Source: Escallonia rubra
Taxonomy: Eukaryota > Streptophyta > Magnoliopsida > Escalloniales > Escalloniaceae
DNA length: 64,000 nucleotides
Reading direction: 5' to 3'
Assembly (NCBI GenBank): GCA_033065855.1
Contig: JAVXUO010002964.1
Location: 59,224 to 123,223, forward strand
This document shows positions 20,648 through 33,300 of this stretch, in pieces. The notes beneath the pieces are model-generated. The model searched no databases, was not told where the DNA came from, and saw only the letters and a program-made list of their open reading frames with translations. A program made the translations under genes and the position numbers. Positions within the stretch are counted from its first letter, which is position 1; every line of letters begins with the position of its first letter.

Positions 20648-21780
20648 ACTCGTTTTTCATCTGATGGCAAAAATTTTTGAGGCAAAAAAATGGCTCTTGG
20701 GGAAGGGGAACCTAAGTTACAAATTTCGATCAATTCAAGCTAATTGTTAAGACTTTCAATATCAAAAGAATGTTGAGAATTTTCACAGGAATCATGCAGC
20801 ATGGTTATAAGTTTTGAACTAACGCCTCTCTCTCATGTAAATACCAATACAGGACGAAAAATACTGCGGTAATTGGTCCCATGTTAGGTTGCACTAAGGC
20901 TAAGAGTTTAATGGTGCCATTATTTAAGAACTTATTGTCAATCATGTCTTTATAATATAGCTCACCCAAACTTCCCGCCCAGTTTAGGGACCAACTTAGG
21001 CTATATGTAATTTATGACTTTGGTTATACTGACATTTTTTCCCCTCTTTTTTGGTTACAACTTTTTTAATAGGGGTGCAATTTTAAGCGAAAATGTTTTC
21101 TTATAGGGTTCTAGCTTAGTTTTTAAGTAAAACAATTTACACTATGATGAGAGAGCTAGTGAAAAAGAATAGGCTATTTTGAAGGCCACGCATTTACACT
21201 ACGCTCAGAGAGTGAGAAAGAAAAACTAGATCACTGTGATGATGGTGATTGTTGTGAAGCTGGCTTAAACAAAGGGTACTGTAAGATAATAATATAAATA
21301 TTGCGGTTCAGGAAAAGATGGCATCGCTTTCAAGTTGTGGTGGCAAAATTGGATGGGTGCTGTCTACTGGAAAATGGAAGATACAAAGTTTTTGGGATAA
21401 GTGAGACCAAATTAGGCTATATAATTTACAATTTTGGTTATATTAACATGTTTTTTTTTTCTCATTTTTTATTACAACTTTTCTAATAATTCTGCATTTT
21501 TAAGTGAAAAATGTTGTTAACTAAAAAGTAATGAAACAATTTACCTTTATGTTTAGAGAGTGAGAGAAAGAAAAGGCTATTTTGAAAAGTACAGTGAGAT
21601 AATAATAGAAATATTGCGGTTGGGGGAAAAGGTGGCTTCGGCCTTCATGTAGTTGGTGGCAAAATTGGGTGGGTGCTGTCTACTAGAAAATGGAAGATAC
21701 AAAGTTTTTGGGATAAGTGAGATCAAATTAGGCTATGCAATTTACAATTTTGGTTGTATTAACAGTTACCTTTATGTTTA

Positions 21781-21878
21781 GAGAGAGAGAGAGAGAGAGA
21801 GAGAGAGAGAGAGAGAGAGAGAGAGAGAGAGAGAGAGAGAGAGAGAGAGAGAGAGAGAGAGAGAGAGAGAGAGAGAGA
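21781..21878. repeat. (GA)n microsatellite, about 98 bp
   Basis: Uninterrupted GA dinucleotides. The equivalent site in copy 2 (about 45711-45731) has about 21 bp. Confidence 0.97.
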
Positions 21879-22002
21879 AGGTTATTTTGAAGGCTATACA
21901 TTTAGCCCAACATGCGGTTTGCCCCACTTTCCCCGCTTGCCCCACTGCCCCCTAGTTTGATTTTCACACCAAGATAAGCATAGCATTTATAGCAGTTCTA
22001 TA

Positions 22003-22128
22003 ATGGCCTGCCCCCATAGTTGAATACACTCGGAGTGCCAATGCCCAGCCGGAGATCTCCCGTCCGCTGGCAGACTTCTTGCCTAGTTTATGTGGTGATC
22101 GCTTCACGTCATTCGAGAATGTCAACAA
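22003..22128 (+). pseudogene. TPS exon 1 relic fused to CACTA (module 1)
   Basis: Matches TPS exon 1 from the ATG through the CCTAGTTTATGTGGTGATCGCTTCAC region (the PSLWGDRF codons) but has an altered frame and stop codons, then joins antisense CACTA transposase sequence at about 22129. The leader sequence before the ATG is also conserved. Confidence 0.75.
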
Positions 22129-22491
22129 TTGTCATTGCGACAACCGATTCATCTTTGTTTCAGTGTCAGGCTCAAAGTAAAGGGAGCAAAAGTTAGTGAG
22201 CTCCTCAAGAATGTAAGCCTCCGCAATTAAACCTTCAACGCGCGTTTTGTTACCCACCTTTTTCTTAGAGTCAAACCTATACCTATATAAGAAAGAAGTC
22301 ATTTTTCAGTGAACAACGCACGTGTGCAAGTGTGAAATACAGTTTAAAGATGGATGAGTGACATCACCTCTCAAATGGATACAACCACCGATACTGCACA
22401 GGTCCGCATACTCTAGCCCCATATGCTATGTGAATGGTCAAATGCTTTATTGAATCAAAGAATGATGGGAGAAAGATTTTCTCTAGTTGTT
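22129..22491 (-). pseudogene. CACTA transposase C-terminal fragment (DUF4218 type)
   Basis: The minus-strand translation contains LEKIFLPSFFDSIKHLTIHI, AYGARVCGPVQYRWLYPFER and, after an intervening stretch, KKVGNKTRVEGLIAEAYILEEL. These correspond to the DUF4218 region that follows TNP2 in CACTA transposases. Only this part is kept in copy 1. The same piece recurs at about 26790-27164. Confidence 0.75.
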
Positions 22492-30066: not shown

Positions 30067-30288
30067 TAAATTGGTATAGATAGATAGCTATATTCTGACG
30101 CAGTTATTATGAGAGGTACAACATGCATTGGTTACCCAATTTAGATTTTCCTCATTAATGGTAACACAAGCCTTTAACATGCGTTGGTTACTCAATTTAC
30201 GCTACGTTTAGAGTGTGAGAAAGAAAAGCCTATTTTGAAGGCTATACATTTAGCTCCAACTTGCCCTACTTGCAGTTCTATAAATAGA

Positions 30289-30296
30289 ACTGCCCC
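30289..30296 (+). promoter_or_regulatory. TATA box of TPS gene A
   Basis: TATAAATA 60 bases before the start codon at 30349, followed by the leader GAACTGCCCCCATAG that is also seen in front of the upstream exon-1 relics. Confidence 0.75.
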
Positions 30297-30348
30297 CATA
30301 GTTTGATTCTTACACCAAGGTAAAGCAACTACCAATAACTGTTCTATA

Positions 30349-33300
30349 ATGGCCTCGTCTGTGGGTGAAAACACTCCAAGTGCCAATGGCCAGCCGGAGA
30401 TCGTCCGTCCGCTGGCAAACTTCCAGCCTAGTTTATGGGGTGATCGCTTCACTTCATTTGATTCAGATGATAAGGTAAGAGTAGACGCTCGGTGTGCGCG
30501 AGTGCGTATGTATGAGTTTCTCTGTGTGTCTGGAAAGAGGGATCAACAACAATGGAGTTTGGATCTCCTGCTGCAAAAACTACAGCAAGGGGTTGCTGTT
30601 GGTAGCGCGAAGTCCCTCTTTGTACCTCCAATAAACGTAGAAACAGTAAAGAGCCAACCTTGGTAACGTGTTACTGAAAGGGCGTTGACTTCCTATTTTG
30701 TTCTTTTGTCCTTTTTAACATTTACACCACAAGCCAAAGCATTTCAAAGGAAACTACATTCAATTCGTACATTAGACTCTATATATTTATGCACTCAGGT
30801 GGAAATATATTTAGCGTATTTAAGGAGGGAAATAATAATCTTACTCTAAATAATAGTAAGCAATTACGTGTATATATGTGGTCGCTAGTCTTAATTACAT
30901 AACATTTTATGAATCCCTAGTATCCGAAGTGTACAGAGCTATATCTTATCACTTCCAAATAATAATCTCATGCAGTTGTTATTAGAGTACAAAATGCATT
31001 TGTCACTTAGTAGCCGTTAGTTTGCAATTCTCATTTTCAGTATTTGTAATGGTGGCAAAATTAAATATTCTCTTTTTGGTTGTTCGTTTATAATATTTCA
31101 TTTTTGGGTGTTCTTAAAATTTTCTGACAGGTTATAACTGTGTGTCAGAAAAAAAAGAGAAAAACATGCGGTGTACAATTTTTTTTATTTTAACAGAGTT
31201 GTCAGGTCCAACAACCGTGGCACCACCCCGCTGCTTCCGGTCGAAACCCCAACACCACCGTAAGCCACCCTTCTCACCACTACTCGCCACCCACACCCAC
31301 CAGAACAACTGTAGCACCACCCGAAAGCTTCATATCGAAGCCCCAGTACCATTATAAGCTAACCTCCTCGCCACCCACACCCACACCCACCATGAACATC
31401 GTCGTTAAACACCAAAATCGAACTAGATCGCTACCCCCAACAGCCGTGAAACACCATAGGACCACTCTCAACCACTAGCACAGCCGCGTCTACTACTATT
31501 TGTTCTATCCACCAACATTCGAGACCCACGACTGTTGCTACGCGGTTCCAAACACCGGATCGCCACATAATAGCCACTCAAGCACCACAACGCCACCCTC
31601 AACCAAAGGTTTAGCCTCTTGATGGCATTTAGTGGTGGTGGATATGGGGGTTTTGCGGCGGCAGTGTTTGAAGAAGAAAGATGGGTGGTGTTTCTTTTGG
31701 GAAATGAAAAATGAGTGGGTCAGCCGGTCAGCTTCTGTAGAGAGGCTGGTTAGTGAGCTTTGATGTCAGATTTATTGAGGGATTTTAGGGTTATTGTGGT
31801 AACATAACACATCAATAGTAAGGATATTTTGATAAATTATAGTGGAAAAACGGATACGAAAAGCAAACAAAACTATATGAAAAAAAAAAAAAAAAAACAT
31901 TGGGTACTTTTTGCAAAACTATAAACGAACAAGATGTTGCTTTTGTTTTAATTTGTTTTTAAACTAAAAACTCATAATAATACAACAAGAAATAAAAGTT
32001 GAAAATAAAAAATGTAAACAAAGAACCCCTAAGATTCTCTTCATTCATGGCAACACAAACTTAACATTTCACGTCAAAAAGTTTACATAGAAATTTTTAT
32101 CTTAGTTAGTGAATGTGGTCTCAAATATGGCAAGCGGACGAATGTACGTACTTCGTCTGTCCTTCGTTAGCATTTCGGCTTCTCAGGAGGCAAATTTCTA
32201 TGTATCTCAATAGCTTTGGACTTGACAGATGTATCTAAATAGATTTTCTGGTACATATGTAGTATACACTAGTGTTAGATTTATTGAGAAAACTGAATGC
32301 GTTTCTTATTATGGATAGAGGAGGTTTGAACTCAATTATTAGGTACTGTGCTAATACAGGTTTCGGAAAGGTATGCTAAAGAAATCGAAGTGCAGAAAGA
32401 GAAAGTGAGAAGTACAATATTAGCTGCTGCCGGCAGCAACCAAGTTGAGAAAATGTGTTTGATCGACGCCGTTCAACGCCTTGGTGTGGCAAGTCACTTT
32501 GAGAAAGAAATTGACGCGCAACTGGAACAGATTTTCGCCGGTGAATCAGCCAATACAGACTATGATTTATACACGGTTGCACTTCACTTCCGATTATGCA
32601 GACAACGTGGTTATAATGTTTCCTGCAGTAAGTCCCTTTCTTGCTTATATTCAAAGTGGAACCGTGGTGGGGAAAAAAAAAAGAGTCCAACAATTGCAGC
32701 AATTTCAAAAACTCGAGGCCAATATACAAAGTATTTGCACCTCGATCTGCTGTTACTTCGTTAGGAGTTAAAAGTTTTTGCTTTTGCCACACAGAAGGAT
32801 GTGAATTTATCACAATCTTGCTGACATATTTTTAATTCCAGCCATCCCAAACGAGATGGCAGCACCCACCACATATAAATTATAGCACTCACATTTCTCA
32901 ACATTCGGCTGCAATGAGCGTTGTAGCACGAGGGTACAGCCTCCCCATGTAGGCAACAGCTAATGATTGAAATATATGGTTAGTAACATTTTACAAATAC
33001 TTTCAGCGACAAATGTTAACAGCTATTGTTAGTGTGACTAATCATTTTTAGTGATTTCGAATTATCGTTATATAGGAGTTGAAGCATCTTGCTAGAACCC
33101 CAATTACAACCAAAAGTTTTTCTACTTAATTTGTTTATAAGCTTACTCTTCCCCGTCTCGATAGATACTATTATTGAGAAACCATAAAGAGCCCCTAATT
33201 CAAAGATTTGATTTGACATGTTTTTTAAGCAATGGGGGTAAACAAGGGCAATTGTCTATTTCTACATCATATACTCCTTTTTCACACTTTTTTGACAATC

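Follow-up and report, generated by a model that had tools for sequence, protein, structure and literature searches.

Terpene synthase genes and the array upstream of gene A

This report concerns an array of truncated gene starts and repeat blocks that lies upstream of a terpene synthase (TPS) gene, gene A, in Escallonia rubra, and for which a role as serial decoy promoters had originally been predicted. It was analyzed within a window, i.e., the whole stretch of 64,000 nucleotides taken from contig JAVXUO010002964.1 (positions 59,224 to 123,223, forward strand), the end of which is the end of the contig, referred to as C2867. Positions are those of the window unless contig coordinates are indicated; the genome comprises 566 Mb in 3222 contigs. 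The genes are organized as follows.

30349..36813, + strand: gene A, a seven-exon TPS gene with open exons (translations, splice sites, Pfam)
30349-30474, 32360-32627, 33846-34214, 34300-34518, 34612-34749, 35974-36222, 36517-36813, + strand: approximate exons of gene A
30193..30348, + strand: native core promoter and 5' untranslated region (UTR) of gene A, with TATAAATAG at about 30279 (blast, element matches)
57370..63743, + strand: gene B, a tandem copy of gene A with seven open exons (all seven exon translations 100% identical to those of gene A)

The exon ends of gene A were set by eye and are accurate to a few bases; exon 1 (30349-30474) is followed by a GT donor at 30475. In an approximate join of the exon translations, the Pfam domains PF01397 (E 1e-52) and PF03936 (E 8e-96) are both covered end to end, and exon 4 encodes DDTYD, which we take to be the DDxxD motif. 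As judged from domains, motif, and the seven exons, genes A and B are plant terpene synthases; leader and exon of gene B are identical to those of gene A. The TPS subfamily to which they belong comprises eight copies of exon 3 at 81% identity or more, the next match being at 59% (75/75 candidates scored). Two of these copies are located on C2867, one on C2868, two on C16 (one with a stop), and one each on C62, C53, and C1756.

A further gene copy, 99.2-99.5% identical to genes A and B, is found at the start of C2868, the contig numbered next after C2867 (L011 = C2868:1-10000, at 1763-8167). It carries a deletion in intron 1 and may represent a third copy in tandem, or else an assembly overlap or haplotype. 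Behind gene A, a TPS exon 4-5 fragment is present at 37796-38106, with a counterpart on C2868 at 9297-9714; according to tblastn it is the only relic in the window that does not derive from exon 1.

Array A (20940-30349) is composed of relics of the TPS leader and exon 1, most of them assigned to two classes, and of blocks from the interior of a hAT-like element.

20965..20986, + strand: exon-1 stub of about 20 bp (~20967) at the exon 1/hAT-like element joint (joint at 20977)
20987..21764, + strand: hAT-like element interior in three blocks (20987-21069, 21222-21548, 21594-21764)
21862..22116, + strand: class-beta relic, TATA lost, +1 frameshift, exon 1 running into CACTA-type sequence
23865..24111, + strand: class-alpha relic, ATG changed to ATA, with the joint of exon 1 to element interior
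24109..24783, + strand: hAT-like element interior in three blocks (24109-24216, 24409-24521, 24623-24783)
25435..25641, + strand: class-alpha relic with deletions of 2 bp and 1 bp and the joint to element interior
25638..26567, + strand: hAT-like element interior in three blocks (25638-25783, 25874-26258, 26269-26567)
26523..26785, + strand: class-beta relic, TATA lost, +1 frameshift, exon 1 running into an antisense DUF4218 fragment
28010..28169, + strand: class-alpha relic with a deletion of 2 bp and the joint to element interior
28167..28683, + strand: hAT-like element interior in two blocks (28167-28313, 28359-28683)
28638..28851, + strand: relic keeping TATAAATAA, ATG region gone (34- and 13-bp deletions), absent from the tree

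All six relics that had been postulated upstream of gene A were recovered on the + strand when the window was searched by blast with the native gene region (promoter, leader, and exon 1 at 30193-30461). From 21862 to 28010 their E values are, in order, 1e-46, 4e-58, 9e-48, 2e-43, and 2e-49, and relic 28638-28851 is matched in two pieces (E 4e-21 and 1e-7). The statement that several keep TATA-like boxes also proved accurate: TATAAATAA is found in relic 28638, TATAAGTAG in 25435 and 28010, and TACAAGTAG in 23865, the box being lost in 21862 and 26523. Class alpha includes relics 23865, 25435, and 28010 of array A as well as 41289, 49899, 52455, and 55031 upstream of gene B; its leader resembles those of the C53 and C1756 genes. 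Class beta consists of relics 21862 and 26523 with their twins, and its leader resembles that of full-length relics on contigs C16, C1163, and C89. Beside position 26785, a 49-residue antisense reading matches DUF4218 (E 6e-9), presumably a domain of CACTA elements, and the flank of relic 21862 is homologous (91%) to that same flank.

The set is repeated upstream of gene B, as had been noted originally, in the form of seven relics and one stub.

41289..55872, + strand: relics at 41289-41448, 45721-45975, 49899-50148, 52455-52661, 53544-53806, 55031-55190, and 55659-55872, with a joint stub at 44906
19882..43812, + strand: duplicated segment (array A and gene A), the second copy of which extends, with indels, from 43813 to the window end

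Six of the seven gene-B relics and the stub are located within the second copy of the segment, and relic 41289 precedes it. Stretch 19882-21804 recurs at 43813 with 99.3% identity, 21852-22122 recurs at 45711, 24511-30753 recurs at 51528 (99.4%), and 30851-37070 at 57820 (99.2%). Because of this recent segment duplication, arrays A and B mostly amount to one observation. A transposase fragment (Transposase_21/tnp2, E 3e-65) is located upstream of gene B at 46272-46742 on the - strand, in a stretch missing from array A. Elsewhere in the window, a minisatellite with about 15 copies of a unit of ~123-124 bp occupies 8277-10185, and remains of retroelements are seen on the - strand at 1888-2922 (aspartyl-protease region, PF13975) and at 16479-17051 (weak reverse-transcriptase match, PF00078, under the cut-off).

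The repeated unit and the exon 1/element joint

The repeated unit of roughly 300 bp had been regarded as promoter-derived. As a repeat it is clearly present in array A, with 11 blocks of at least 80 bp, four of which measure 266-350 bp; its proposed origin was not borne out. When the unit (query 25930-26570) was compared with the genome, weaker copies (70-79%) were found, besides those in the arrays, on ten contigs absent from the TPS matches listed. Six of the dispersed copies were compared and share mutual similarity over up to ~1 kb at 80%, which is longer than any similarity with the array. A dispersed-copy query gave at least 49 matches, 32 of them (query counted) on 23 contigs without these arrays, the copy number being a lower bound with the best 40 of 104 candidates scored; several matches share ends near query positions 37 and 1031. 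Terminal inverted repeats (TIRs) of sequence CATAGTTATAA are present at both ends of L030 538-1529 and L033 131-1108, with one base differing at the 3' end of L033, and the same two copies show perfect 8-bp target duplications (8/8), namely, GTTTGTAG twice and TCTTAGAG twice. Paired ends were sought in all six dispersed copies, and none were found in the other four. Such termini together with 8-bp target duplications point to hAT-type elements. The longest open frames at the six dispersed loci amount to ~120-143 codons. On this evidence, the "300-bp unit" is identified as the interior of a dispersed hAT-like, presumably non-autonomous element of ~1 kb, and its interpretation as a promoter-derived satellite was rejected, given the TIRs and target duplications of the dispersed copies. 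A search of the window arrays for a complete element with both termini and a target duplication yielded interior fragments only. Membership in a genome-wide transposon family, which is part of what the original prediction named as a refutation, applies to the repeated unit.

Over 30193-30252, the working promoter itself is similar to the tail of the unit. Its part 30193-30237 matches the same place in three of the six dispersed copies (L028, L033, and L030) at 72-77%, with E values of 6e-5, 4e-4, and 3e-3 that were computed against six short loci only, the match being below the cut-off of the array block search. From this direct match, ~45 bp of the element seem to be contained in the working promoter. 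Ahead of the C1756 gene, ~1.8 kb before its start codon, an element with a degenerate 5' terminus is found, and the C53 gene is preceded, 1.6-2.1 kb before its start codon, by a large part of such an element. A scan for termini that allowed 2 mismatches in 11 bases produced hits scattered over the window and the contigs; they were not used, save the one at C1756 57315, which agrees with the alignment end. Since elements stand upstream of both genes, insertion probably predates the split of the subfamily, or there were separate insertions.

In class alpha, exon 1 breaks after about codon 30 and is joined to the element interior (GCCTAGTTTA/GGGACCAACTTAGG). This applies to the three class-alpha relics and the stub of array A; in relics 21862 and 26523, exon 1 runs into the CACTA-type fragment. 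With up to three mismatches, the joint GCCTAGTTTAGGGACCAACTTAGG occurs nine times in the window and not at all in 100 shuffles. The break point is identical within 1 nt at 13/13 abutting places (seven on C2867, two each on C16 and C1163, one each on C2868 and C89), albeit at sites picked for abutting modules. Because the same breakpoint is found on five contigs, the joint probably arose once. Exon 1 continues intact to the donor in the C53, C1756, and C62 genes; the composite joint would have arisen after these had separated, or it was lost there. At C1756 ~56170-56320 (contig coordinates, L026), a scrambled relic was recognized by eye, in which the leader is followed by an intron-1-like stretch and then by the exon-1 start, as by template switching. 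The TATA/start region of the C62 gene holds a 59-bp direct duplication (25120-25225, contig coordinates, L027).

Relationships were assessed in a midpoint-rooted tree of 33 leader/exon-1 rows (29 different) that leaves out relic 28638, its twin 55659, the stubs, and gene B. Gene A, the C2868 gene, and the two C16 genes form one clade (97/91) in which no relic is placed, and class beta is a clade of 13 rows (100/99). Class alpha falls into two groups rather than one supported clade, i.e., eight rows from C2867/C2868 (93/89) and five from C16/C1163/C89 (90/98), each of the latter being under half filled; its single origin therefore rests on the shared joint alone. From their position in this tree, the placed relics are not copies of the start of gene A; derivation of the relics from the promoter and start of the working gene was rejected on that account.

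The loci at C16 105-125 kb, C1163 18-45 kb, and C89 8-22 kb (L014-L023) are near-copies of one array locus. They are 86.9-97.9% identical in alignments of more than 700 bp, two rows to C16 142.8 kb (86.1 and 73.9%) being excluded, and would be either alleles or recent duplicates. Their module numbers differ, as unequal crossing-over would predict.

These data bear on the idea of a composite mobile element, i.e., that the hAT-like element captured the TPS start and was spread by transposition. Pack-TYPE transposons capture gene fragments, and here, too, a gene fragment adjoins transposon sequence; moreover, the same joint is found on five contigs, on two of which (C1163 and C89) a search for TPS exon 3 found none. 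However, the TPS piece is not enclosed by element TIRs in any copy examined, and the array blocks start and stop inside the element. The at least 61 TPS-start matches listed (best 40 of 43 candidates) are located on eight contigs, six with subfamily TPS genes plus C1163 and C89 with their near-copies of the C16 locus. The TPS start is absent from all six dispersed loci (best E 0.30, outside the element), where any further matches to the gene are either weak or due to low-complexity intron sequence. With the TPS start lacking in 6/6 dispersed loci and blocks devoid of element ends, transposition of the composite is not supported, and this explanation would appear extremely unlikely.

Sequence tests of function

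According to the decoy promoter hypothesis, the relics would start transcripts that read into gene A or are spliced to its exon 2. What speaks for it is the retention of TATAAATAA in one relic and of TATAAGTAG in two, a donor-like AGGTRAG at 22913, the only one in 20940-30348, together with nine occurrences of GTAAG, and weak hints of constraint on the leader in three class-alpha relics. Against this stand the loss of the TATA region in two of the six array-A relics and the loss of frame or start codon in 13/13 window relics, none of which aligns through to the ancestral exon-1 donor (stubs not counted). On C16, C1163, and C89, the donor GT has become AT in 8/8 full-length relics examined. As far as the ancestral donor is concerned, the splicing to exon 2 that had been envisaged thus looks impossible. 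Divergence over 12 relics is alike in leader (0.155) and exon (0.145), and variable columns are spread evenly over the three codon positions in these relics (14/15/15), compared with a weak bias in five genes (6/5/9). The codon set, which includes five of the six array-A relics, no array-B relics, and seven relics from other loci, is of supporting value only. Taken together, a role as decoy or alternative promoters would be very improbable.

In a second functional scenario, the element repeats with their TPS pieces would give rise to 24-nt small interfering RNAs (siRNAs) that direct methylation to the array and, via sequence held in common, to genes A and B. Maize b1, a case of paramutation, is likewise preceded by tandem repeats, from which the present repeats differ in being diverged, in including coding relics, and in being known from sequence alone. 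The Arabidopsis FWA promoter, where a short interspersed nuclear element, tandem repeats, small RNAs, and methylation are described to come together (PMC3431836), is a further precedent; it has transposon-derived tandem repeats at a promoter in common with array A, where they lie directly upstream of gene A, but array A is ~9 kb long, contains degenerate coding relics, and its description stems from sequence only. Paramutation is stated to need tandemly repetitive enhancers, and FWA repeats to be prone to methylation by the RNA-directed pathway (PMC11500991). On C2868 11987-14234 (L012, ~1987-4234), the same modules are present in inverted orientation downstream of the gene copy, and with array A or B this inverted array at 12-14 kb could make up an inverted repeat.

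The sequence shared with the genes is limited. Relic 23865 has 14/224 exact 24-mers in common with native 30193-30475, or 38/224 with at most one mismatch, and relic 21862 has 1/232; the other four array-A relics have none, and no exact match between the element blocks and 29000-37100 exceeds 13 nt. Targeting of genes A and B by siRNAs would consequently lean on relic 23865, as the only one with a long stretch identical to the native leader. The earlier suggestion of small RNAs matching exon 1 is weakly possible in so far as relic 28010 shares an exact run of 21 nt with this exon, but it is the only one of the six array-A relics to do so (14-18 nt in the others); two other array-A relics share 24 and 35 nt exactly with promoter and leader. 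All in all, a silencing array would be an unlikely explanation.

The preferred reading, i.e., that of a decaying, functionless array, has to face several observations besides the choice of joint sites mentioned above. Stretch 22484-24521 is only 96.6% identical to its copy 48531-50553, with neighbours at 99.2-99.4%, which a single duplication fails to explain; gene conversion or an older duplication layer are candidates. Four of the eight full-length relics on C16, C1163, and C89 keep an open frame of 43-44 codons, with a stop just past the lost donor, possibly a tiny separate open reading frame; in these four, the exon, with 24 of 540 differing, is less changed than the leader, with 28 of 420. 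Pairwise differences among three class-alpha relics show an excess at third codon positions (8/10/17), and the class-alpha TATA/UTR, with differences at 16 of 216 sites, is less changed than the exon, with 35 of 256. These counts are few and non-independent, and they would lean to some constraint or a functional past. Finally, the window relics share one orientation and all precede genes, which would be expected of regulatory repeats; orientation is also kept by unequal crossing-over. Open-frame relics were located at L018 7803-8000 (C16 142803-143000), with three relatives, ~1.2 kb upstream of exon 1 of the C16 gene.

History of the arrays and relation to known systems

Summarizing, array A is quite probably a decaying mosaic that would have resulted from transposon insertion, illegitimate joining, and unequal crossing-over, and not a set of decoy promoters. 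In a first step, a hAT-like non-autonomous element would have inserted upstream of the ancestral subfamily gene, leaving a short piece in the working promoter; this is proposed because an element with one degenerate terminus stands upstream of a paralogue. In a second step, an illegitimate joint would have connected TPS exon 1, broken after about codon 30, with the element interior, yielding a leader-exon 1-element composite; in another lineage, the exon would have lost its splice donor and some copies would have been cut by a CACTA-type fragment. Unequal crossing-over between modules would then have produced head-to-tail arrays. These would have been duplicated along with adjacent TPS genes, and their number differs among the copies of one locus. 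Eventually, a tandem duplication of 24-27 kb, regarded as recent because of the 96.6-99.4% identity, would have given genes A and B with their arrays. The arrays would be expected to be silent, methylated chromatin without a dedicated role. We infer the crossing-over of the third step, the order of the steps, and the absence of function.

In kind, this would mostly be an ordinary transposon-assisted array of truncated gene duplicates; unusual are the bias to the 5' end and the one composite joint, which is common to two groups of TPS loci and varies in copy number. Truncated gene duplicates from unequal crossing-over occur in plant tandem gene clusters, and one-way partial copies beside open paralogues, frameshifts, and copy-number differences are found here as well. 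In contrast to such duplicates, six exon-1 relics and a stub precede gene A, compared with one exon 4-5 fragment in the window, and the class-alpha relics share one transposon joint. With hAT-type miniature inverted-repeat transposable elements (MITEs), the Escallonia repeat has in common the dispersed element of ~1 kb, the TIR CATAGTTATAA, and the 8-bp target duplications, albeit the window arrays hold internal fragments only. MITEs in and around plant TPS clusters have been proposed to promote recombination and cluster formation (Boutanaev and Osbourn, via PMC12595863). MITE-type sequence among clustered TPS genes, as reported there (PMC12595863), is likewise found in Escallonia, where the joints of one element with a TPS exon are resolved to the base. 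Judged by titles, no description of the present layout was found in the literature, which is not proof that it is unpublished.

It would be decidedly unlikely that the one-time fusion of a transposon interior to a TPS start produced a self-amplifying repeat, carried along with the clusters and serving as a heritable silencing dial. If so, copy number would set the siRNA-directed methylation of neighbouring genes, and clusters would be shut off, or scent or defence chemistry would vary, by gain or loss of repeats. The copy-number series of arrays A and B and of the C16, C1163, and C89 loci offers material for testing repeat-driven silencing. For annotation, TPS counts based on matches to exon 1 or to the promoter would be inflated. 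For the TPS family, the reading as a decaying mosaic would provide a base-level account of how 5'-end debris builds up in a TPS cluster, from insertion through illegitimate joint to repeat expansion carried with gene duplication, and, by this, a concrete case for the proposal that MITEs drive the formation of TPS clusters by recombination (PMC12595863).

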